Source: Bacteroidota bacterium | GTDB lineage: Bacteria > Bacteroidota > Ignavibacteria > Ignavibacteriales > Ignavibacteriaceae | NCBI GenBank assembly: GCA_021796135.1 | Contig: JAJYOQ010000144.1 | Span: forward strand, 1 to 9,049 | DNA length: 9,049 nt | Direction: 5' to 3' | In this document: positions 1 through 9,044 of the stretch, piece by piece | How positions within the stretch are numbered: position 1 is the stretch's first letter | Layout of the letters: each line of letters begins with the position of its first letter | The notes under the pieces: model-generated | What the model saw: the letters and a program-made list of their open reading frames with translations, nothing else | What the model was told of the DNA's origin: nothing | The model's database searches: none | Made by a program: the position numbers and the translations under genes

Positions 1-1566
1 CGTGTAAATATTCATCAGCAACAGAAAGCACAAAAGTTTATAAAAGACGAGTATGATAACAAAGGTTACGCCGGAAGATTTGGCGCCGGACTTCCATCAA
101 TAAGCGACGGATCTTTGCTCTTTCTCCAGCATATGATTAGCAAAATGAAACAGAATGTTATAGAAGGAAGCCGAATTGCAATTGTATTTAACGGCTCACC
201 TCTTTTCAGCGGGAGTGCTGGAAGCGGACCAAGTGAAATCCGTAAATGGATAATTGAAAATGATATGCTCGAAGCAATTATTTCAATGCCCGACCAGCTT
301 TTTTATAATACCGGCATTGCAACCTACATTTGGATTGTTATTAACAGAAAAGAAAAAAAACGCAAGGGGAAAGTACAGCTAATAAACGCAAGTGGAAGCG
401 ATTGGGAAAAAGGCGACAAAGACAATCCGTTTTATCTTAAAATGATGCGTAGTCTTGGCAATAAAAGAAAAGAAATTGGCGATGCTAAAAATGGTAAACC
501 CGACCATATAAAAACAATAACAGAAATTTATGAAGCTTTTGAAGAAAGCGAATACTGTAAGATTTTTGATAATGAAGATTTTGGATATACACGCATTACG
601 GTTGAAAGACCAAAAAGAAATGAGAAAGGCGAGATAGAAAAAGATAAAAATGGTGAACCTATTCCCGATGCAGAATTAAGAGACTTTGAAAACATACCAC
701 TCAAAGAGAATGTCGAAGAATATTTTAAAAGAGAAGTTCTACCACATTTGCCGGATGCCTGGATTGACCAAAGCAAAACTAAAATTGGCTATCAAATTAA
801 TTTTGCATATTACTTTTATACACCAACATTACTTAGAAATCCAAGAGATATTACTGAGATAATTAAGCAGTTAGAAGAAAATATAAGTAAATCAAATCAA
901 GCTTCTATTTTTGAAGACCCCAAGATGAATATAGACACTCCCATTTGTAAGCCTACAAATATTGAATGGATTGATACTATTCCAACGAATTGGCAAATTA
1001 AAAAATTAAAATATGAGGCTATTGTTCAAGGTGGGTATGCCTTCAAGAGTGATAATTTTGTTGAAGATGGAACCCCAATCGTACGAATCGGTGATATATA
1101 TTCGCCTGTTGATTTAGAAAATTGTAGAAGAACTTCTGAGAAAGATATACCTAATGAATTTAAAATTAAAAAATACGATGTGTTAATCGCCCTTTCCGGT
1201 GCTACTGTTGGCAAAATGTGTTTTATAGAAGAAGACATTGAAGCATATATCAATCAGCGGGTAGCAAGAGTCAATAATGGTTCTCGATGGCTATATTTTG
1301 TCCTAAATTCTGAATTTTTTAAAAAGCAAATTGAATTGTTAGCCGGTGGTTCCGCACAAGAGAATATAAGTACAAATGATATAGCTAACTTCTTCATCCC
1401 TATTCCTCCTTTAGAAGAACGTATTGCTATTGATAAATATTTATCCGAAAAAAGTTTTCAAATAAAAACGATTATTTCTAATAATCAAAAACTCAGCGAA
1501 TTATTGCAAGAATATCACTCATCTTTAATCAATGCAGTAGTAACGGGAAAAATTAAGGTGATATAG
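1..1566 (+). CDS. hsdM-hsdS: HsdM C-terminal part fused in frame to a single-TRD HsdS (type I R-M modification/specificity protein), 5' end outside window
   Basis: The frame is open from base 1, so the gene starts to the left; the first in-window ATG (115) is internal. Counting from base 1, residues 1-300 match type I HsdM N6-adenine methyltransferases: GRFGAGLP near 26, the SRIAIVFNGSPLF block near 57, EYFKREVLPHLPDAWID near 240-256 and KIGYQINF near 261-268. The SAM-binding and NPP[FY] catalytic motifs would lie upstream and cannot be checked. Without a stop, the chain passes a short helix and linker into an HsdS-like half: WIDTIPTNW (323-331), one target-recognition domain, then IPIPPLEER (466-474) and a helical tail ending in VTGKIKV. 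A normal HsdS has two such units in about 400 residues; here there is one in about 200. An internal ATG at 925 could once have started a separate hsdS, but no good ribosome site precedes it. The protein should methylate DNA with HsdR as partner, probably dimerising through the half-S part (inference). Confidence 0.9.
   Translation, partial: RVNIHQQQKAQKFIKDEYDNKGYAGRFGAGLPSISDGSLLFLQHMISKMKQNVIEGSRIAIVFNGSPLFSGSAGSGPSEIRKWIIENDMLEAIISMPDQLFYNTGIATYIWIVINRKEKKRKGKVQLINASGSDWEKGDKDNPFYLKMMRSLGNKRKEIGDAKNGKPDHIKTITEIYEAFEESEYCKIFDNEDFGYTRITVERPKRNEKGEIEKDKNGEPIPDAELRDFENIPLKENVEEYFKREVLPHLPDAWIDQSKTKIGYQINFAYYFYTPTLLRNPRDITEIIKQLEENISKSNQASIFEDPKMNIDTPICKPTNIEWIDTIPTNWQIKKLKYEAIVQGGYAFKSDNFVEDGTPIVRIGDIYSPVDLENCRRTSEKDIPNEFKIKKYDVLIALSGATVGKMCFIEEDIEAYINQRVARVNNGSRWLYFVLNSEFFKKQIELLAGGSAQENISTNDIANFFIPIPPLEERIAIDKYLSEKSFQIKTIISNNQKLSELLQEYHSSLINAVVTGKIKVI
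1555..1560 (+). promoter_or_regulatory. Ribosome binding site for the Ntn-hydrolase-like gene
   Basis: AAGGTG lies 9 bases before the ATG at 1570, inside the last codons of the fused hsdM-hsdS gene. It supports the 1570 start. That start matters because it places a threonine directly after the initiator methionine. Confidence 0.55.
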
Positions 1567-1569
1567 ATT

Positions 1570-2589
1570 ATGACACTTTGTGCAGCCTGGATAAGACAAG
1601 AAAAAGATAACCAAGAATTGGTTTTTGCAACTGACAGTATGCTTACCGGCGGAGGAGAAACCTGGAAAAACGGCATTAAACTTTTTGAGTTACCTCGCAA
1701 AGATTGTTTGCTATGTTTTGCCGGAGAAACTACAAAAGCGTATCCACTTATTCTTAACCTGATCTCTTCAATAAAATTCGATCAAAAAGTAATGAATCAG
1801 CATACCGATTTACGGCAAGTGCTGGATTATTTATGCTCAACTTTTACTGAACTTATCAATTCGCTTGTAGATGAAATGCAAACCGAAGGTTACGATCCTT
1901 ATTCAGCAGCTAAATTTATTTTTGGTGGATGGAACTGGAAAACACAGTTATTGGAATTCTGGGAAATTTATTACGGAAAAGATGAGAAAAGATTTTTGTA
2001 TAGAGGATTCGATAGTAAAGATTCAAGAGCTTGTTTAATGATTGGAGATCATCTTAAAGAAGCCGAAGATTTATTAGCGGACGAGTTGAGTTCTGCCGGA
2101 AAACGCATAGGAGGTTCTTTTGATATGGAGCCATTTCTTGTTTTATCCCGTATGGCAAGAAACAGCACAGATTTCAGATCGATTGATGGAGCTTTACAAG
2201 TTGCAAAAGTATATCAATCCGGCAGCACAGAATTTTTTGGTGTAATGTGGCAATCAGTTTCCGGTAAACATACATTTTTAGGCAGAGAACTCAATCCGTA
2301 TATTAAACCACAAATTAGATTTCTTGACCCCGATTTGGGAATAATCCTCGAATTGGAACTTCCTAAAAAAATCAACAAACTTTCTCCTGAGCTTATTTCT
2401 AAAATAAAAGCAGATGATTTTGGAACCGAGTTTAAATTTATTGAAGATTGCTACCCCAATGGCGAACAAAAACCGGACTTGACGGAAAGGCAGATGGAAA
2501 TGTTATTGGCAATATTCAAAGACAATTCATATAAAAAATTTTTAGCTTGCCTTGCAGAAGAAGAAAATACGGGAAATGAAAATGAGTAA
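1570..2589 (+). CDS. Proteasome/HslV-like Ntn-hydrolase-fold protein inside the R-M operon
   Basis: This 339-residue protein has no name I recognise, but its N-terminal 230 residues read like a proteasome beta-type fold. The start is Met-Thr-Leu-Cys, so removal of Met would expose a Thr nucleophile as in HslV. ATDS (20-23) supplies an Asp where HslV has Asp17. NGIKLF (34-39) supplies Lys37 where the family has Lys33. CFAGET (49-54) resembles the HslV GFAGGT turn, FIFGGWN (116-122) the central strand of proteasome subunits, and MIGDHLKEAEDLL (157-169) the following helix. Residues 240-339 are an extension without clear relatives. There is no signal peptide or membrane segment, so it is cytoplasmic. 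It begins 3 bases after the hsdM-hsdS stop and overlaps hsdR by 8 bases, so it is almost certainly co-translated with the R-M genes. Peptidase activity and any role in restriction control are inference; a non-catalytic Ntn-like fold is possible. Confidence 0.75.
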   Translation: MTLCAAWIRQEKDNQELVFATDSMLTGGGETWKNGIKLFELPRKDCLLCFAGETTKAYPLILNLISSIKFDQKVMNQHTDLRQVLDYLCSTFTELINSLVDEMQTEGYDPYSAAKFIFGGWNWKTQLLEFWEIYYGKDEKRFLYRGFDSKDSRACLMIGDHLKEAEDLLADELSSAGKRIGGSFDMEPFLVLSRMARNSTDFRSIDGALQVAKVYQSGSTEFFGVMWQSVSGKHTFLGRELNPYIKPQIRFLDPDLGIILELELPKKINKLSPELISKIKADDFGTEFKFIEDCYPNGEQKPDLTERQMEMLLAIFKDNSYKKFLACLAEEENTGNENE

Positions 2590-5572
2590 TGGAATACACA
2601 CAGAACGAACATTTGAGTCGGCGATTATCGAGCATTTAACTAGCAACGGATGGTTAGAAGGCAACGCTAACGATTTCAGCAGTGAAATCGCATTGGATAA
2701 AAATGCCATTCTTGAATTTGTTAAAACATCACAACCTCAAGAATGGGAATTGCTGAAATCGTATTACAAAGAAGAAGTAGAAAACAAATTCATCCAGCGT
2801 ATCTTTAAGGAATTGGACTTGCGTGGAATGCTTGATGTTATCCGACACGGAATAACAGACAGCGGTGTTAAATTCAAACTTGCCTATTTCAAACCGGATA
2901 GCGGATTAAATCCCGACACACTAAAACAATACAGCTTAAATAAACACTATGTAACTAGACAAGTATATTTTTCCGCAAAGGACAAAAAAAGTATTGATCT
3001 TCTACTTTCCCTAAACGGTTTGCCTGTAGCAACCATCGAACTTAAAAACCATTTCACCGGGCAAAGAGTAAAAGAAGCGATTGAACAATACAAAACCAAT
3101 CGCGACCCAAAAGAGTTGTTATTTCAGTTTAAGAAAAGAGCTATTGTTCACTTTACAGTCGATCCCGATGAAGTTTATTTCACAACAAAATTGGAAAGCA
3201 GCGGAACAAGATTTTTCCCTTTCAATAAAGGTTATAACAACGGCGCCGGTAATCCGCCGGCAAAAGACTACACAACTTACCGCTCCGCATACTTTTGGGA
3301 AGAAATACTATCAGTTAATAGTTGGGCAGAGATTATAGGTAGATATGTTCACCTTCAAAAAGAGGAATACACTGTTGAAGGGAAAAAGTATTACAAAGAA
3401 GCAATGCTTTTCCCTCGTTTTCACCAATTAGATGTTGTAAGAAAACTTATAGCGGATTCTAAAGCCAATGGAAGTGGTCAAAGATATTTAATAGAGCATT
3501 CTGCCGGAAGTGGTAAAAGCAATTCTATTGCCTGGCTTGCTTATCGGTTGTCCTCCCTTTACGGCGCTTTAGACAAAAAAATTTTTGATTCGGTAATTGT
3601 TATAACAGATAGAAATGTACTTGATCAGCAGTTGCAGAATACAATTTATCAGTTTGATCATAAATCCGGTGTGGTTCAAAGAATTGAAGTAGATTCTAAA
3701 CAATTAGCCGATGCAATTACAAACGGTGTTAGTATTATTATTACAACACTTCAAAAATTTCCTTTTGCCCTAAACCATTTATCAGAAATTCCAAATAGGA
3801 AATATGCCGTAATAATAGATGAAGCTCACAGCAGTCAAGGAGGTGAAGCAAGTCGTAAAATGACCGAAGCACTTGTAGGCAAAGATGTTTCATTGGAAGA
3901 ATCTGAAAAGGTTGAAAGAGAAATTGAAGCTGGTGTTCAAGATGAAGACGATTATATAAGAGAAATAATTCAGAAAAGAGTTCCGCAAGAAAATATTAGC
4001 TTGTTTGCTTTTACAGCAACGCCAAAACCGAAAACTCTTGAAGTCTTTGGTACTAATAATGCCGAAGGAAAACCACAGCCATTTCATCTTTATTCTATGC
4101 GGCAAGCAATTGAAGAAGGATTTATTCTCGACGTTCTTAAAAACTACACGACTTATGAAACCTATTATAGATTTAGCAAAACCATTGAAGACGATCCTGA
4201 ATTAAATAAAAAGAAAGCCGTAAAAGCTATTGGCAGATTTGCTTCGCTACATCCTACAAACATTTCTCAGAAAACAGAAGTAATGGTTGAACATTTCCGC
4301 CAAATAACAATGAAGAAAATCGGCGGTAAAGCAAAAGCAATGGTTGTAACTGCATCGCGTAAACACGCTTTAAAATTTTATCTGGAGTTTAAAGATTATA
4401 TAAAAGAAAAAGGTTACAAAGGTATACGCCCTCTTGTAGCGTTTTCCGGTTCGTTAATAGATGAACTTTACCCTGATGGTGTAACTGAACCGCAACTAAA
4501 TAAATTCGGCGAAAAAGAATTGCCGGAAAAATTTGCATCAAACGAATATCAAGTTTTGCTGGTTGCTGATAAATACCAATATGGTTTTGATCAGCCTTTA
4601 CTCCACACAATGTATGTTGATAAAAAGCTTTCCGGCGTAAAAGCGGTTCAAACATTATCCCGTTTAAACAGAACTTGCCCCGGCAAGGAAGATACTTTTG
4701 TTTTGGATTTTGCGAACGACCGCCAAACTATTATCGATTCATTTCAGCCTTATTACGAAATGACAATGATGAGTGAAACTACTGATCCGAACCATCTTTA
4801 TGATTTGAAAGGCAAAACCGATTCAGCACAAGTTTACTTCCAATCAGAAGTTGATGCATTTTCTAAAATATTCTATAAACCGGGAAGCGCCTCAGTGCGT
4901 GATCAAGGAAAATTGTACGCATACATTGATCCAGCTGTAGATCGTTTCAAGCAATTGGATGAAGAGAAACAAGACGATTTTAAGAAGGCTTTAACTTCAT
5001 TCACTCGTATATATTCTTTCCTTTCTCAAATAATGCCTTTTCAAGATGTTGAATTAGAAAAACTTTATTCATTCGGAAGATTTCTATTAACAAAACTTCC
5101 AAAGGTAGATTACACGGAGAGATTAAAGTTAGATAATGAAGTTGCTTTGGAATATTACAGACTTCAAAAAATTGCAGAAGGCGATTTGGTTTTACAAGTA
5201 CAAGGCAAACACGAGCTCGACCCCGTTACTGAAGCTGGTATTGCCAGAGAAAAAGAAGAAAAGGATAAACTCTCAAATATTATTTCACTCCTAAACGATA
5301 AATACAATTTCGATTTTACTGACCAAGACAGATTGTATTTCGAACAAATTGAACAAGCTTTATTTGAAAATGATGAATTAAAAGTCCGCGCGAAAAACAA
5401 TCCAATAGAAAACTTCAAATATGCTTTCGATGAAGTATTTATTCAGACATTGATCGACCGAATGGATGCAAACCAAGAAATCTTTGATAAAATAATGGTT
5501 AACTCTGAATTTAAAGATGACGTAAAGAATTGGTTAACTAAGAAAATTTATGAACGGTTTAAAGAAGATTAA
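2582..5572 (+). CDS. hsdR: Type I restriction endonuclease subunit R (HsdR)
   Basis: This is the motor and nuclease subunit of the type I enzyme; it translocates DNA by ATP hydrolysis and cleaves unmethylated DNA away from the recognition site. The 996-residue length is normal for HsdR. Residues counted from 2582: a PD-(D/E)xK nuclease with Asp139, then IELKN carrying Glu153 and Lys155; RFHQLDVV before the motor; Walker A AGSGKS (308-313); DEAH (413-416); TATP motif III (478-481); and QTLSRLNR motif VI (690-697). The C-terminal 250 residues are helical and probably contact HsdM/HsdS. All key residues are present, so the subunit looks functional. Possible starts are TTG 2552, ATG 2576 and ATG 2582. 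I chose 2582 because GGGA at 2571-2574 is well spaced only for it, giving an 8-base overlap with the upstream gene and probable translational coupling. Confidence 0.95.
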   Translation: MSNGIHTERTFESAIIEHLTSNGWLEGNANDFSSEIALDKNAILEFVKTSQPQEWELLKSYYKEEVENKFIQRIFKELDLRGMLDVIRHGITDSGVKFKLAYFKPDSGLNPDTLKQYSLNKHYVTRQVYFSAKDKKSIDLLLSLNGLPVATIELKNHFTGQRVKEAIEQYKTNRDPKELLFQFKKRAIVHFTVDPDEVYFTTKLESSGTRFFPFNKGYNNGAGNPPAKDYTTYRSAYFWEEILSVNSWAEIIGRYVHLQKEEYTVEGKKYYKEAMLFPRFHQLDVVRKLIADSKANGSGQRYLIEHSAGSGKSNSIAWLAYRLSSLYGALDKKIFDSVIVITDRNVLDQQLQNTIYQFDHKSGVVQRIEVDSKQLADAITNGVSIIITTLQKFPFALNHLSEIPNRKYAVIIDEAHSSQGGEASRKMTEALVGKDVSLEESEKVEREIEAGVQDEDDYIREIIQKRVPQENISLFAFTATPKPKTLEVFGTNNAEGKPQPFHLYSMRQAIEEGFILDVLKNYTTYETYYRFSKTIEDDPELNKKKAVKAIGRFASLHPTNISQKTEVMVEHFRQITMKKIGGKAKAMVVTASRKHALKFYLEFKDYIKEKGYKGIRPLVAFSGSLIDELYPDGVTEPQLNKFGEKELPEKFASNEYQVLLVADKYQYGFDQPLLHTMYVDKKLSGVKAVQTLSRLNRTCPGKEDTFVLDFANDRQTIIDSFQPYYEMTMMSETTDPNHLYDLKGKTDSAQVYFQSEVDAFSKIFYKPGSASVRDQGKLYAYIDPAVDRFKQLDEEKQDDFKKALTSFTRIYSFLSQIMPFQDVELEKLYSFGRFLLTKLPKVDYTERLKLDNEVALEYYRLQKIAEGDLVLQVQGKHELDPVTEAGIAREKEEKDKLSNIISLLNDKYNFDFTDQDRLYFEQIEQALFENDELKVRAKNNPIENFKYAFDEVFIQTLIDRMDANQEIFDKIMVNSEFKDDVKNWLTKKIYERFKED

Positions 5573-5593
5573 TTTATAGATATGTGAAGGTAG

Positions 5594-5616
5594 GTATAAC
5601 AAGTGCCTCAAGCCGA
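5594..5616 (+). repeat. attC-like left half (R''-L'' layout)
   Basis: GTATAAC, a 5-base spacer, CCTCAAGC and then CGA reproduce the spacing of the left half of integron attC sites, where a 7-base RYYYAAC core, 5 bases and an 8-base L'' box precede the central fold. The third core base is A instead of a pyrimidine. Its right partner is unclear: the next GTTRRRY core is at 5837, which would make a site of about 250 bases, longer than usual attC sites. It may be a fragment or chance similarity. Confidence 0.35.
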
Positions 5617-5635
5617 AAGCGTTTTCGAATTCGGC
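5612..5635. repeat. Inverted repeat GCCGAA / TTCGGC
   Basis: A perfect 6-base stem (5612-5617 with 5630-5635) encloses a 12-base loop. It lies directly next to the attC-like left half and adjoins the next hairpin. No T-run follows. Confidence 0.6.
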
Positions 5636-5636
5636 A

Positions 5637-5663
5637 TCCCGATTTCGCTAAAGCTCATCGGGA
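5637..5663. repeat. Inverted repeat TCCCGAT / ATCGGGA
   Basis: A perfect 7-base stem (5637-5643 with 5657-5663) encloses a 13-base loop. It is the strongest hairpin after hsdR, 65 bases from its stop. It lacks a following T-run, so a terminator role is uncertain. Confidence 0.65.
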
Positions 5664-5728
5664 CAGGTTTGTGTAATTATAAAGTTGCGTTTGCAAAACT
5701 TAGTTGCTCTTAAAGGTAGTTCGTTCCC

Positions 5729-5746
5729 CCAAAGGGGTGCCTTTGG
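5729..5746. repeat. Inverted repeat CCAAAGG / CCTTTGG
   Basis: A perfect 7-base stem (5729-5735 with 5740-5746) closes on a 4-base GGTG loop, giving a compact hairpin. An alternative CCCC/GGGG pairing overlaps it. No T-run follows. Confidence 0.65.
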
Positions 5747-5787
5747 CATAAGAAACATTTTTATCCCCTAAAGTACACGGGACAAAC

Positions 5788-5802
5788 TGAGTTGAGAACT
5801 CA
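5788..5802. repeat. Inverted repeat TGAGTT / AACTCA
   Basis: A perfect 6-base stem with a GAG loop. It lies about 35 bases before the GTTAGGC core. Its AACTCA arm recurs after the GCCTAAC core at 6295-6300, which hints at related site structure on both sides of the cassette-like gene. Confidence 0.55.
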
Positions 5803-5836
5803 AAGACGGTTGTGTTGATCTTTAACATAACACGCC

Positions 5837-6290
5837 GTTAGGCAAAACATTTACAAAATAAATATGGGCATAATATGAAAACTATAATTGTCCTATTAGG
5901 AGTTTTATCTGGTTATTTTTTCCCAAATCATACTTTCTCAATTACATTATACCTAGTTACAATCTTATTCTCATTTGTATTTGGGTTTGTTTTCCCAGAT
6001 ATGATGAATGCTAATTCTTTAAGTAATAAAGTAGATAGAGAAAAAGTTACTTTTAAAAGCAAAATTACCATTCATAAAATGAATACTATTTCATTTTGGG
6101 TTGGAGTATTTATTTTCTTCCTAGCAATTACAAGTTTTATAAAACACTTCTTTTTTAATTCGGAAGTCAATCAGTTAAGTATTCTCATTTTTGCTTTTAG
6201 TTCTGGTATCTTTATCAAACTACTAAATATTAATCTGTCGATAAGTAAAATTAGGAGCAATGATTTAACTATTTAAAAGTTTTGCCTAAC
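5837..6290. mobile_element. Integron-cassette-like unit bounded by GTTAGGC and GCCTAAC
   Basis: GTTAGGCAAAAC (5837-5848) and GTTTTGCCTAAC (6279-6290) form a perfect 12-base inverted repeat around one short gene. Their first 7 bases fit the integron core consensus GTTRRRY at the start of a cassette and RYYYAAC just after its gene. The gene starts 31 bases inside the left core and stops 7 bases before the right core, the compact packing expected of a cassette. No integrase or attI is in the window, and the right site lacks a matching GTTRRRY end, so mobility cannot be claimed. An unrelated small element with terminal inverted repeats is the alternative. Confidence 0.45.
5875..6276 (+). CDS. Small four-helix membrane protein, function unknown
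   Basis: This 133-residue protein matches no family I recognise. Hydrophobic segments lie near residues 2-16, 22-40, 71-89 and 98-117, so it should sit in the inner membrane with four helices. The connecting loop at about 41-70 holds most of the charges (KVDREK, KSK, HK). A short polar tail with Ser, Lys and Arg follows the last helix. The ATG at 5875 is chosen because the ATG at 5863 meets a stop after four codons. No clear ribosome site precedes it beyond a weak GGG. It is extremely A/T- and Phe/Ile-rich compared with the R-M genes. It is the only gene in the cassette-like unit and is not in an operon with its neighbours. Cassette genes of this kind are often orphan membrane proteins. Confidence 0.7.
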   Translation: MKTIIVLLGVLSGYFFPNHTFSITLYLVTILFSFVFGFVFPDMMNANSLSNKVDREKVTFKSKITIHKMNTISFWVGVFIFFLAITSFIKHFFFNSEVNQLSILIFAFSSGIFIKLLNINLSISKIRSNDLTI

Positions 6291-6346
6291 CAGCAACTCA
6301 AAGCGACCGCTTCTCTGCCTTCGGCAGATAAATTCGAATCGGTCGT
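6284..6346 (+). repeat. Right-hand attC-like site, apparently truncated
   Basis: GCCTAAC (6284-6290) is followed by a spacer, ACTCAAAG and a nested fold: outer stem CGACCG (6304-6309) with CGGTCG (6340-6345), extended by one G-T pair, and inner hairpin TCTGCC-TTC-GGCAGA (6314-6328). This is the layout of an attC left half plus its central hairpin. The expected right half after 6346, ending in GTTRRRY, is missing; the following bases are plain AT-rich sequence. Confidence 0.45.
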
Positions 6347-6358
6347 AGTGAAAAATTA

Positions 6359-6387
6359 TTGGATTTAGCTTTTTAATTGAATATGAA
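6359..6387 (+). promoter_or_regulatory. Weak candidate promoter for the serine hydrolase gene
   Basis: TTGGAT (6359-6364) and TATGAA (6382-6387) are separated by 17 bases, upstream of the 6443 gene in an AT-rich gap. The match to -35/-10 consensus is partial, and this lineage may use different promoter elements. Confidence 0.2.
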
Positions 6388-6430
6388 TTCTGAAATACAT
6401 TGAGATAAAAAGATTAATTCAAAATCAATT

Positions 6431-6436
6431 AAGGAG
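6431..6436 (+). promoter_or_regulatory. Shine-Dalgarno site of the serine hydrolase gene
   Basis: AAGGAG lies 6 bases before the ATG at 6443 and fixes that start. An out-of-frame ATG at 6438 is followed at once by a stop. Such a clear site argues against a typical Bacteroidetes host, where these sites are rare. Confidence 0.75.
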
Positions 6437-6442
6437 AATGAA

Positions 6443-7576
6443 ATGAAATTCAGAAATTGTAATTACAAATTCAACTTGGTTGTCATTTTATTTGTTACAA
6501 TGATTTTAATCTCTTGCAAAGGCGAACCCCTAGAGCCGATACCTACTACGTTAACAAATGAAACTATAGCAAAACTTCAAACAGCTGCAGATAAAATAAT
6601 GAGAGAGTACCAAACGCCTGGTTTAGCAGCTTACATTTCTGTAGAAGGCGAACCTGCATTTACTTTAACCCGCGGCGTAAGCAACTTAATTACAAATGAA
6701 CCTATGAGTATAAATAACTATTTTAGAATTGCAAGCCTGACAAAAACATTTACCACAGAAACCGTTCTACTACTGATGGATAATGGTTTAATAGATCTTA
6801 ACAAACCAATTTTATATTACCTGCCGGATTTAAAATTACCAAAAGGCAGTGATAAGATTACCGTAAGAATGCTTGGTAATATGACAAGCGGACTTTTCAA
6901 TTACTCAGATGATCCTGACATTCTCACTCCATGGTATACCACCGGCGGAGAGACGATTTTTACTCCTGAGCAGCTTGTTGCCTCGGCGGGCAAGAAGGAC
7001 TCTTTGAATTTTACACCCGGGACCAAATATGAATACTGTAATACTAACACAATAATACTTGGAATGTTAATTGAGAAAGTTACCGGCAAAAAGGTTAGAG
7101 ACGTAATGAACGAAAAAATATTTCAACCGTTAGGTATGACAAATACTTACTGGCCTATCTCAGTATTTTTGCCTTATCCCTATACTCATGGTTATACTTA
7201 TTCCCCGGACTTTCACACTTTTATTGATTGCACGAATTGGAATCCTTCATGGGGTGATGCAGCCGGCATACTCGTTTCTAATATGCATGATTTAATAATA
7301 TGGTCTAAAGAGTTAAGTGAAGGAAATCTTCTTACAGCTAACTCAAAAAAGGAAAGATTCTTATGGAACGTAAGCGGTGAATATGGATTTGGTGTAGAAC
7401 ATATTAGTGATTGGATCGGTCATCCGGGAATAATAGAAGGGTATAATTCACAAATATGGATTAACACAGTAAGAAAAATAACTATCATTACATCAACAAA
7501 TACAAATATAAATCAACCGGCATATAGAGCGTTTGCTGAATTTGCCATGATACTTGACCCTGTTCTTACACAATGA
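6443..7576 (+). CDS. Lipoprotein serine hydrolase of the beta-lactamase (class C)/DD-peptidase family
   Basis: This 377-residue protein belongs to the beta-lactamase/transpeptidase-like fold (class C, R61 DD-peptidase and EstB esterase relatives). A lipoprotein signal occupies residues 1-24, with lipobox LISC and Cys25 as lipidation site; the mature protein should be anchored in a membrane facing the periplasm or outside. Catalytic motifs are complete: SLTK (98-101, Ser98 nucleophile and Lys101), YCN (198-200, in place of the usual YSN) and HPG (327-329, in the HxG/KTG position). An HxG motif is more common in DD-peptidases and esterases than in true AmpC enzymes, so antibiotic hydrolysis should not be assumed. 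Length is normal and the frame is intact. It stands alone, with its own ribosome site, between the cassette-like unit and the interrupted reading frame. The real substrate is unknown. Confidence 0.9.
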   Translation: MKFRNCNYKFNLVVILFVTMILISCKGEPLEPIPTTLTNETIAKLQTAADKIMREYQTPGLAAYISVEGEPAFTLTRGVSNLITNEPMSINNYFRIASLTKTFTTETVLLLMDNGLIDLNKPILYYLPDLKLPKGSDKITVRMLGNMTSGLFNYSDDPDILTPWYTTGGETIFTPEQLVASAGKKDSLNFTPGTKYEYCNTNTIILGMLIEKVTGKKVRDVMNEKIFQPLGMTNTYWPISVFLPYPYTHGYTYSPDFHTFIDCTNWNPSWGDAAGILVSNMHDLIIWSKELSEGNLLTANSKKERFLWNVSGEYGFGVEHISDWIGHPGIIEGYNSQIWINTVRKITIITSTNTNINQPAYRAFAEFAMILDPVLTQ

Positions 7577-7724: not shown

Positions 7725-8492
7725 TCAGTTAAAATAGATTTCTGCCGGTGTTTTATAATTCAATGATTGATAGTCTTTCAAATAAATATCCTCATACTTC
7801 AAGCTTCGCCAAAGTCTTCCAATAAAGATGTTATCAAGCGCTCTACCTTTTGAATCCATACTCATCATTATATCATTACCCGTAATTGTTTCAGTAAAAA
7901 CCTTGCTCGTAAATTGACTGCCTTGATCTGTGTTAAAGATTTCCGGTTTACCTTGCCGAAGAGCTTTATCCAATGCCTCTAAGCAAAAATATACATCCAT
8001 GCTGTTAGATAATTCCCAGCTTAATACATATTTGCTAAACCAGTCAATTACCGCTACCAAGTAAGCGTAGCTTTTGTAAAGAGGCAAGTATGTAATATCG
8101 CTGCTCCAAACTTGATTGTTAGACTTTATCTCTACATCTCTCAACAAATAGGGATAAACCAAATGATCTTTTGCCGCTTTGCTCAAATTCTTCTTCGGCG
8201 TAAGTGCTTGTATTCCCATTAATTGCATTAATCGCCATATTCGTTTATGATTGTAAAAATTTCCTTGCCGTTTTAGTTCTTCGGTTATTTTTCTTACTCC
8301 ATAGAACGGATAATCGGTGTATATCCGGTCTATCTTTGCCATTATCTCAAGTTCTTCTTGGCTTACTGCCAATGGTGAGTAATAATAACTTGAGCGACAT
8401 AAATTTATCAAAGAACACTGCCTTTGTATTGGTATTGAAGAATTCTTCGGTTCTAGAAAACTTCGTTTTATTTCAAGCGACAGTGTTAAGTT
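7725..8492 (-). pseudogene. IS3 orfB transposase (DDE), catalytic Glu lost and internal deletion
   Basis: The frame is open from the A-run at 8491-8499 down to the stop at 7725; the readable start is IKRSFLEPKN and SIPIQRQC, then SSYYY, typical for IS3 OrfB. An HTH-like region (YPFYGVRKITEEL) is followed by the integrase core: Asp in SSDITYLP (codon 8097-8099) and Asp in NTDQGSQFTS (codon 7926-7928). Exactly 35 residues later, where the family has Glu in the context [IV]ERLWRS, the sequence is IGRLWRS (GGA, 7818-7820). One base change from GAA explains it. The C-terminus jumps from YLKDYQS to LNYKTPAEIYF, skipping the usual segment of roughly 20-25 residues between them. The protein should be catalytically dead. 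Confidence 0.88.
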
Positions 8493-8764
8493 TTTTTTTA
8501 AGCCAGTCCAACTCTACTTGCTGTTTGCCTATTTGTTTATAAAGCTGGTCTATCAATTCAGAATTTACTTCTGCTCTTGGGCCTCGTTGGTGATTGAATA
8601 TCTCCGGTAAACTTTCCAATACTTCTTTTTTCCAGTTGCCAACTGCATTGGGATGAACTTCGTATTCCTTGGCTATTTCATTCATACTTTTGTAACCCTT
8701 GATAGCTTCCAATTGCTACCTTTGCTTTGAATTCACTGCTGAACGTTTTTCTTGCTCTGGACAT
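8473..8764 (-). pseudogene. IS3 orfA (HTH regulator of transposition), frameshifted
   Basis: The true start is the ATG at 8762-8764, with AAGGAG (8772-8777) 7 bases upstream; it reads MSRARKTFSSEFKAKVA. The frame is then lost near 8713-8714, where one extra A in the GCAATTGG stretch shifts reading. Removing it restores KVALEAIKGY and the rest: helix-turn-helix MNEIAKEYEVHPNAVGNWKKE, then a leucine-zipper-like LIDQLYKQIGKQQVELDWL, ending at the A-run. As it stands, the first 16 codons and the rest are in different frames. Confidence 0.85.
8491..8499 (-). other. A9 run at the orfA/orfB junction (former frameshift site)
   Basis: On the minus strand orfA ends through nine A's followed by C. IS3 elements commonly use such a run for -1 ribosomal slippage to make OrfAB. 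Here orfB lies in the +1 frame relative to the body of orfA, so the usual -1 slip would not join them. A run of ten A's would give the -1 arrangement, and eight would fuse the frames directly; a one-base change in the run is likely. Confidence 0.55.
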
Positions 8765-8876: not shown

Positions 8877-9044
8877 ATGCCTACCTATGAATTCAAATGC
8901 AGTAAGTGCAATGAAAAATTCGGCGTGCAGATGTCGATATCAGAATACTTAAAGACAAAATCTTTCGCCTGTCCAAAATGCAAAAGTGAAGATGTAAAAA
9001 GAATCTTCTCCAATTTTACAGCGGTTACTTCAAAGAAGAGTTAG
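8877..9044 (+). CDS. FmdB-type zinc-ribbon small protein
   Basis: This 55-residue cytoplasmic protein begins MPTYEFKCSKC, the hallmark of the FmdB/CxxC-CxxC regulatory family (founding member FmdB, proposed regulator of formamidase). Two zinc-knuckle pairs, CSKC (8-11) and CPKC (32-35), can bind one zinc, and the spacing of 20 residues between pairs fits. The tail, from VKRIFSNF onward, is basic and short, as usual. The start is set by the GGAGG site and by the family's conserved MP[TI]Y start. It lies 49 bases beyond the IS right end, so its promoter may come from the remaining gap or from the IS end. The precise function of such proteins is mostly unknown. Confidence 0.88.
   Translation: MPTYEFKCSKCNEKFGVQMSISEYLKTKSFACPKCKSEDVKRIFSNFTAVTSKKS

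Follow-up and report, generated by a model that had tools for sequence, protein, structure and literature searches.

Accessory genes embedded in type I restriction-modification (R-M) operons include the closest described counterparts of the gene considered here, X, which encodes a predicted proteasome-like hydrolase in a 9,049-nucleotide stretch of DNA (the window) from a Bacteroidota bacterium of the Ignavibacteriaceae (assembly GCA_021796135.1, contig JAJYOQ010000144.1). DarTG2 (of the RRDM island), TgvAB and RloF resemble X in lying inside a type I operon between hsdS and hsdR, but they are a toxin-antitoxin pair and GmrSD-like restriction proteins, and none of them belongs to the proteasome family. 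DarT acts on DNA. PrrC of EcoprrI is, according to excerpts of three papers, an R-M-linked guard, an effector that the restriction complex gates (PMC3874165, PMC2610378, PMC12707154). Like PrrC, X is one accessory gene set within a type I hsd operon (in the window and at loci L001, L005 and L018). The ABC-ATPase and anticodon-nuclease domains of PrrC are absent from X (no Pfam family at E up to 1), which is predicted to have an N-terminal nucleophile (Ntn) hydrolase fold; the logic proposed for X, in which the restriction enzyme keeps an effector in check, would be the same by analogy.

The proteasome family is the other relevant background. Fuchs, Alva and Lupas (2021) described 22 new proteasome homologues from prokaryotes and phages, without gene context suggestive of function; the archaeal proteasome homologue connectase is a ligase, and the functions of the newly described families are not known (PMC8665760). 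By description, X is like these homologues in being divergent, with insertions or extensions and a conserved active site, and it possibly belongs to one of their families, PMI-4. The full-length type of X differs from them in its R-M context at 4/4 readable loci.

The predicted fold and the conserved catalytic residues make it very probable that X is a proteasome-like Ntn hydrolase with an intact catalytic site, and both the predicted fold and the cassette nature of the gene are well supported. Sequence comparison and analogy tentatively suggest that X serves in defence, as an effector that is gated in the manner of PrrC and encoded by an exchangeable cassette in the hsdS-hsdR interval of a type I system. 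In the window an hsdM-hsdS fusion (1-1566) is followed by X (1570-2589), hsdR (2582-5572), further genes and a transposase:

1570..2589, + strand: X, predicted proteasome-like Ntn hydrolase, 339 amino acids, ATG start (open reading frame, predicted structure, structure matches).
1..924, + strand: 3' part of hsdM, cut by the window start (N6_Mtase PF02384, E 5.4e-21; frame open from base 1, no stop).
925..1566, + strand: hsdS-like part, in frame with hsdM (Pfam PF01420, E 1.6e-11, one stretch).
2582..5572, + strand: hsdR, type I restriction subunit, superfamily 2 (SF2) translocase (Pfam PF04313, PF18766, PF22679).

The original prediction for this locus, made from the letters of the DNA, had described a 339-residue protein that begins Met-Thr and contains Asp22, Lys37, CFAGET and FIFGGWN, and the protein encoded at 1570-2589 has all of these, the two motifs at residues 49-54 and 116-122. 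The coordinates also bear out its position in the operon: 3 bases separate the hsdM-hsdS stop (1566) from the start of X (1570), and the stop of X overlaps hsdR by 8 bases, ATG 2582 (MSNGIHTERTFE) being the most plausible hsdR start.

The AlphaFold2 model of X has the Ntn four-layer fold (pLDDT 85). The closest solved structures are Anbu and proteasome subunits, with identities of ~8-19% in the structure alignments listed, and residue 2 of X superposes on Thr1 of Anbu and proteasome beta subunits. Thr2, Asp22, Ser23, Lys37 and Gly52 are invariant in 108/108 aligned rows, the window counted. The proteasome-like Ntn hydrolase of the original prediction is thereby upheld at the level of a model, in its fold as in the conservation of Thr2, Asp22 and Lys37. 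The presumed catalytic positions are:

1573..1575, + strand: codon of Thr2, predicted N-terminal nucleophile after Met removal (108/108 rows; structural register at residue 2).
1633..1635, + strand: codon of Asp22, equivalent to Asp17 (108/108 rows; hhalign to HslV-like rows, weak score, counted numbering).
1678..1680, + strand: codon of Lys37, equivalent to Lys33 (108/108 rows; hhalign to HslV-like rows, weak score, counted numbering).
1723..1725, + strand: codon of Gly52 in FAG, probable oxyanion-hole glycine (Gly47) (108/108 rows; FAG of HslV-like rows aligned).

X is thus like Anbu, proteasome beta and HslV in its predicted Ntn fold, N-terminal Thr after Met, placement of Asp and Lys, and FAG motif, but differs from them in its low identity, its extra C-terminal helices and its lack of any Pfam or NCBIfam family at E up to 1. 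When X was aligned to HslV-like rows by hhalign, Asp and Lys fell inside the local alignment and Thr outside it. Alignment A2 reached eight HslV-like rows at E 0.0023 (probability 12.6%) and two Anbu-like rows at E 0.0012 (probability 19%), both weak scores from shallow alignments; we take these two rows to be Anbu. Alignment A4, of the other type of X, reached the HslV-like rows at E 5.4e-5 (66.5%) and the Anbu-like rows at E 0.027, and alignment A3 reached them at E 0.1 and E 0.0018, respectively. Sequence searches of the PDB gave nothing meaningful for A2 or for the single X sequence, and A4 reached HslV at E 0.0097. Because these sequence-only links to HslV and Anbu are weak, the fold assignment rests on the predicted structure.

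Two other identities for X were tried and rejected. X is not HslV proper, having no PF00227 or NCBIfam match and no HslU neighbour; no AAA+ unfoldase or HslU was found among the seven window proteins scanned with Pfam, and the neighbours of X are hsdS and hsdR. Nor is it a chance open reading frame (ORF), as relatives at E<=1e-3 made up 632/2440 candidates in the single-sequence search and 796/7996 in the alignment search.

Homologues of X are of two types: a full-length type with a C-terminal extension, of which the largest subclade makes up 51/108 tree rows and includes homologues from Shewanella frigidimarina, Bacteroides sp. 14(A), Methylobacter and Paludibacter, and another type without the extension in the 12 loci measured. 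Extension positions are filled at 57/65 in L001, L005 and L018, versus 0-17 in the 12 other-type loci. In the window the extension is encoded as follows:

2365..2586, + strand: C-terminal extension, residues 266-339, with helices at 281-294 and 306-338 in the AlphaFold2 model (filled alignment positions).

Full-length X lies between hsdS and hsdR at 4/4 loci with readable context (the window, L001, L005 and L018) and directly adjoins both genes in three of them. The order in L001, a Ferruginibacter metagenome-assembled genome, is hsdM, a 567-amino-acid gene (5049-6752) with no Pfam or PADLOC match, hsdS, X, hsdR and DUF3800. L005 is a phage contig, on which genes for terminase, portal and helicase-like proteins were identified by eye; its R-M operon at 4486-12013 reads hsdM, a gene that we presume to be GxxExxY-like, hsdS, X and hsdR. 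The operon of L018 (Bacteroidota) is longer: hsdM, a GmrSD-like gene that matches PADLOC HEC-06/Orf5, a 539-amino-acid gene, hsdS, a 108-amino-acid gene, X, a SatD-like gene, DUF3307 and hsdR. The expectation that homologues would lie next to hsdR therefore holds for the full-length type, but fails for the other type: 15 distinct loci (L002, L003, L004, L009-L013, L015-L017, L058 and L060-L062, duplicates merged) have no match to the hsdM, hsdS or hsdR of the window family in the flanks examined, which are ~1.5 kb or less for L015-L017 and almost nothing upstream for L061, and in which distant hsd families could be missed.

Several other-type copies have neighbours of their own. A copy from Escherichia coli (L059, 9299-10225) adjoins a tyrosine recombinase gene, in a stretch at least 99% identical in 127/5426 complete E. 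coli genomes; in strain KE47 the other-type frame is broken into two ORFs. On a Klebsiella plasmid (L010, 1963-6834), other-type X lies downstream of a GTPase gene and a gene for a dynamin-like GTPase of the LeoA/HP0731 family.

DNA comparisons place the borders of the exchanged unit close to the X ORF itself, because similarity breaks beside that ORF in three pairs of operons (window/L050, window/L052 and L005/L054). The window matches L050 at 88.6% over 35 bases at the end of hsdS (1525-1559) and at 86.5% from 2593 to the end of hsdR, which defines the slot:

1560..2592, + strand: exchangeable slot (blastn against L050, no DNA match between the borders).

By blastn, the window also matches L052 at 1505-1553 and, after a break, again from 2609, and matches L051 from 2594, the L051 contig stopping short of hsdS. 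Between L005 and L054, identity is 87.7% across hsdR (from base 9023 on) and 84.5% at the end of hsdS (7899-7994), and the L005 slot contains X where that of L054 contains a different gene. Three operons without X encode HsdR proteins 86-93% identical to HsdR of an X operon, and the two of them whose slot is readable hold in place of X genes for Fic and AAA/RloB (L050) or a PIN gene (L052).

Relatives of the HsdR proteins of the window and L005 were surveyed to put the slot in context: 164/296 genomes of the phylum matched, 30 loci were returned with flanks of up to 1.5 kb, and the full set of 43 loci comprised these 30 (one being L018), 11 from IMG/VR (one being L005), the window and L001. 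X was present in 1/30 surveyed genomic loci, the one already known to carry it. The distribution of X on the tree of the 43 HsdR rows requires four changes, a number as low in 500/500 shuffles of the labels, several rows labelled X-less having little or no upstream sequence (L051, L029, L086). Because four changes are required, X has been gained or replaced repeatedly. The idea of X as a constant subunit of this HsdR family was rejected on the same tree result and on its presence in 1/30 surveyed loci. X and HsdR nevertheless diverge in parallel (X/HsdR 73/78% and 72/81% within two pairs, 41-42/58-59% in all four between-pair comparisons), the pattern to be expected of a gene that moved with its operon and was at times replaced.

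An hsdS gene is visible upstream of hsdR in 28/43 loci. The gap between the hsdS match and hsdR is at least 580 bp in 23/28 and less than 160 bp in 5/28; in one of the 23 wide-gap loci, L044, the gap has no separate ORF and the hsdS frame runs on. X fills 4/23 wide-gap slots, of which the window, L001 and L005 entered the set through X, and L018 through X and HsdR alike. When 18 slot proteins from 10 operons were compared with Pfam, 12 matched and six were without a family (the first gene of L050, both of L055, those of L071 and L072, and the 108-amino-acid gene of L018). The slots with matches are:

L050: Fic, AAA_21 and RloB (Pfam; the AAA protein is AbiLi in PADLOC).
L052: DUF433 and PIN_10 (Pfam).
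L066: Schlafen AlbA_2 (Pfam).
L068: AAA_15/OLD (Pfam; Old/GajA in PADLOC).
L069: M78 and DUF4411 (Pfam).
L073: TIR (Pfam; PDC-S35 in PADLOC).
L018, besides X: SatD (below cut-off) and DUF3307 (Pfam).

Several of the slot contents, not all, are by sequence match known or candidate defence proteins. The L054 slot has a REP-type transposase-like gene (by eye) and a run of N. A 203-amino-acid slot protein is encoded in both L072 (5386-5997) and L075 (5386-5997), and a 215-amino-acid protein in L071 (5344-5991), like them a viral locus, looks alike by eye; the three are possibly a further uncharacterised slot gene.

The occurrence of X is sparse. In samples of Bacteroidota genomes X was found in 2/395, 2/199, 1/248 and 1/153, corresponding to two known full-length loci and one other-type locus (G867), and in proteobacterial samples in 4/398 and 1/274, all of the other type; these samples overlap and count centre genomes picked for X, without which the matches are 1, 1, 0, 0, 3 and 0. 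The frequency per sample is 0.4-1% with the X-bearing centre genome and 0-0.8% without it. A scan of genome contigs gave four X loci, one of them full-length, and viral scans gave one full-length locus and three of the other type; no further X was reached in viral scans via HsdR, in which L074, L086 and L087 are without upstream sequence. Eight plasmid records have an X match, none covering 80% of the query, and phage records have no match.

The known or candidate defence effectors that occupy this slot in several related operons favour a role of X as a defence effector, and the alternative in the original prediction of an effector released when restriction is overcome fits these sequence comparisons better than its other proposal, a built-in peptidase for HsdR, which is weakened by the X-less operons with HsdR 86-93% identical. 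As a gated effector, X would lose Met1, exposing Thr2 as the nucleophile, and the C-terminal extension may attach it to the restriction complex or serve in assembly. X would be silent while the restriction complex is intact, as proposed by analogy with PrrC; should a phage inhibit or overcome restriction, X may become active as a protease and cleave a host or phage protein, and the infection would be stopped. The most specific version, that X is the first proteasome-family guard of a restriction enzyme and a proteolytic counterpart of PrrC, silenced by the type I complex through its C-terminal extension and released by anti-restriction to destroy essential host or phage proteins, is drawn by analogy and is rather unlikely. 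Several observations weigh against a gated effector. Other-type X occurs without the hsd genes of this family in its flanks, and the enzyme can accordingly work outside R-M. Context is available for no more than four independent full-length loci, none of them from the largest full-length subclade; X was the route to all four, and HsdR a second route to L018. No separate antitoxin-like gene lies beside X in the window, L001 or L005, where the direct neighbours are hsdS and hsdR. Some slot genes are not defence effectors (the SatD-like gene and DUF3307 of L018, the transposase-like gene of L054), besides the 6/18 without a Pfam family. No HsdR column separates the four X carriers from five X-less rows, giving no sign of a dedicated HsdR interface, although 60 matched relabellings of the HsdR rows gave only 0 to 2 separating columns and the test has little power.

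It is somewhat unlikely that X is instead independent cargo, for defence or otherwise: a self-contained protease that shares the transcript but neither senses nor touches the restriction complex. The varied slot contents, unrelated by family, the occurrence of the other type away from the hsd genes of this family, and the lack of an HsdR column that tracks X (a weak test) would all suit such cargo, and there is a precedent in TgvAB, which in the available excerpts of PMC11411939 defends without HsdR restriction activity, TgvAB alone giving 10- to 100-fold less protection than the whole cluster against several phages. The parallel divergence of X and HsdR across four loci and the absence of the extension from the 12 measured other-type loci suggest, however, some adaptation to the R-M setting, and because of these two features the gated effector is modestly preferred to independent cargo. 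The parallel divergence and the 8-base overlap that ties X into the operon with hsdR would also suit a built-in regulator that degrades HsdR (or HsdS or HsdM) and damps restriction as a local substitute for ClpXP alleviation, control of HsdR by ClpXP being established for types IA and IB in excerpts of PMC3874165 and PMC12707154. Such a regulator is improbable, given that closely similar HsdR proteins occur in genomes without X, that several slot genes elsewhere encode toxin-like or nuclease-like proteins, that no AAA+ unfoldase is encoded directly beside X in the window, and that 0 HsdR columns track X (best of 60 relabellings, 2; weak evidence). That X is non-proteolytic, acting in the way of connectase as a protein ligase or amidase on an R-M subunit or phage protein, is very improbable: proteasome homologues do include a ligase (PMC8665760), and X has a C-terminal extension of its own, but nothing specific points to ligation.

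The genes around X are those of a type I system, hsdM (truncated by the window edge), hsdS and hsdR being present in one operon (PF02384, PF01420, PF04313, PF18766). HsdR has HSDR_N, SWI2_SNF2 and T1R_D3-like domains by Pfam and matches TIGR00348 at E 1e-52, below the curated cut-off of that model. Upstream of X, hsdM and hsdS are fused in one frame, whose half-size S part contains one target-recognition domain; this fused, half-size hsdS differs from the separate 415-amino-acid hsdS of L001 and L052, which in L001 has two domains. Downstream of hsdR are a gene for a serine hydrolase of the beta-lactamase fold (6443-7576, PF00144) and a transposase pair with integrase-core and helix-turn-helix domains by Pfam (7725-8712), presumably of IS3 type.

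No R-M-linked proteasome homologue was found among the matches listed from the open-licence PMC literature without preprints, in agreement with the remark in the original prediction that no type I system with such a subunit had been described. Among the PADLOC defence-protein models searched there is no proteasome-like enzyme of the hsdS-hsdR slot. For X itself, PADLOC gave no model at E up to 1, and no PHROG scored below E 0.048. The PADLOC set includes the HEC models, which excerpts of PMC11411939 ascribe to the embedded-defence preprint of Payne et al., and X matches none of them. By a term search, the words proteasome, Ntn, HslV and protease do not occur in the main text of the DefensePredictor paper (PMC13092281).

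X adds a proteasome-like member to the known embedded accessory genes of type I systems. Embedded type I effectors and divergent proteasome homologues were both known already; within the literature matches listed and PADLOC, it is their combination in the hsdS-hsdR slot that is new. If X belongs to a family of Fuchs et al., its R-M-linked type offers such a family a testable role. If X is active and gated by restriction, proteasome-fold proteolysis would join the ways in which bacteria punish anti-restriction, and a relative of the proteasome would be seen to act in bacterial immunity.
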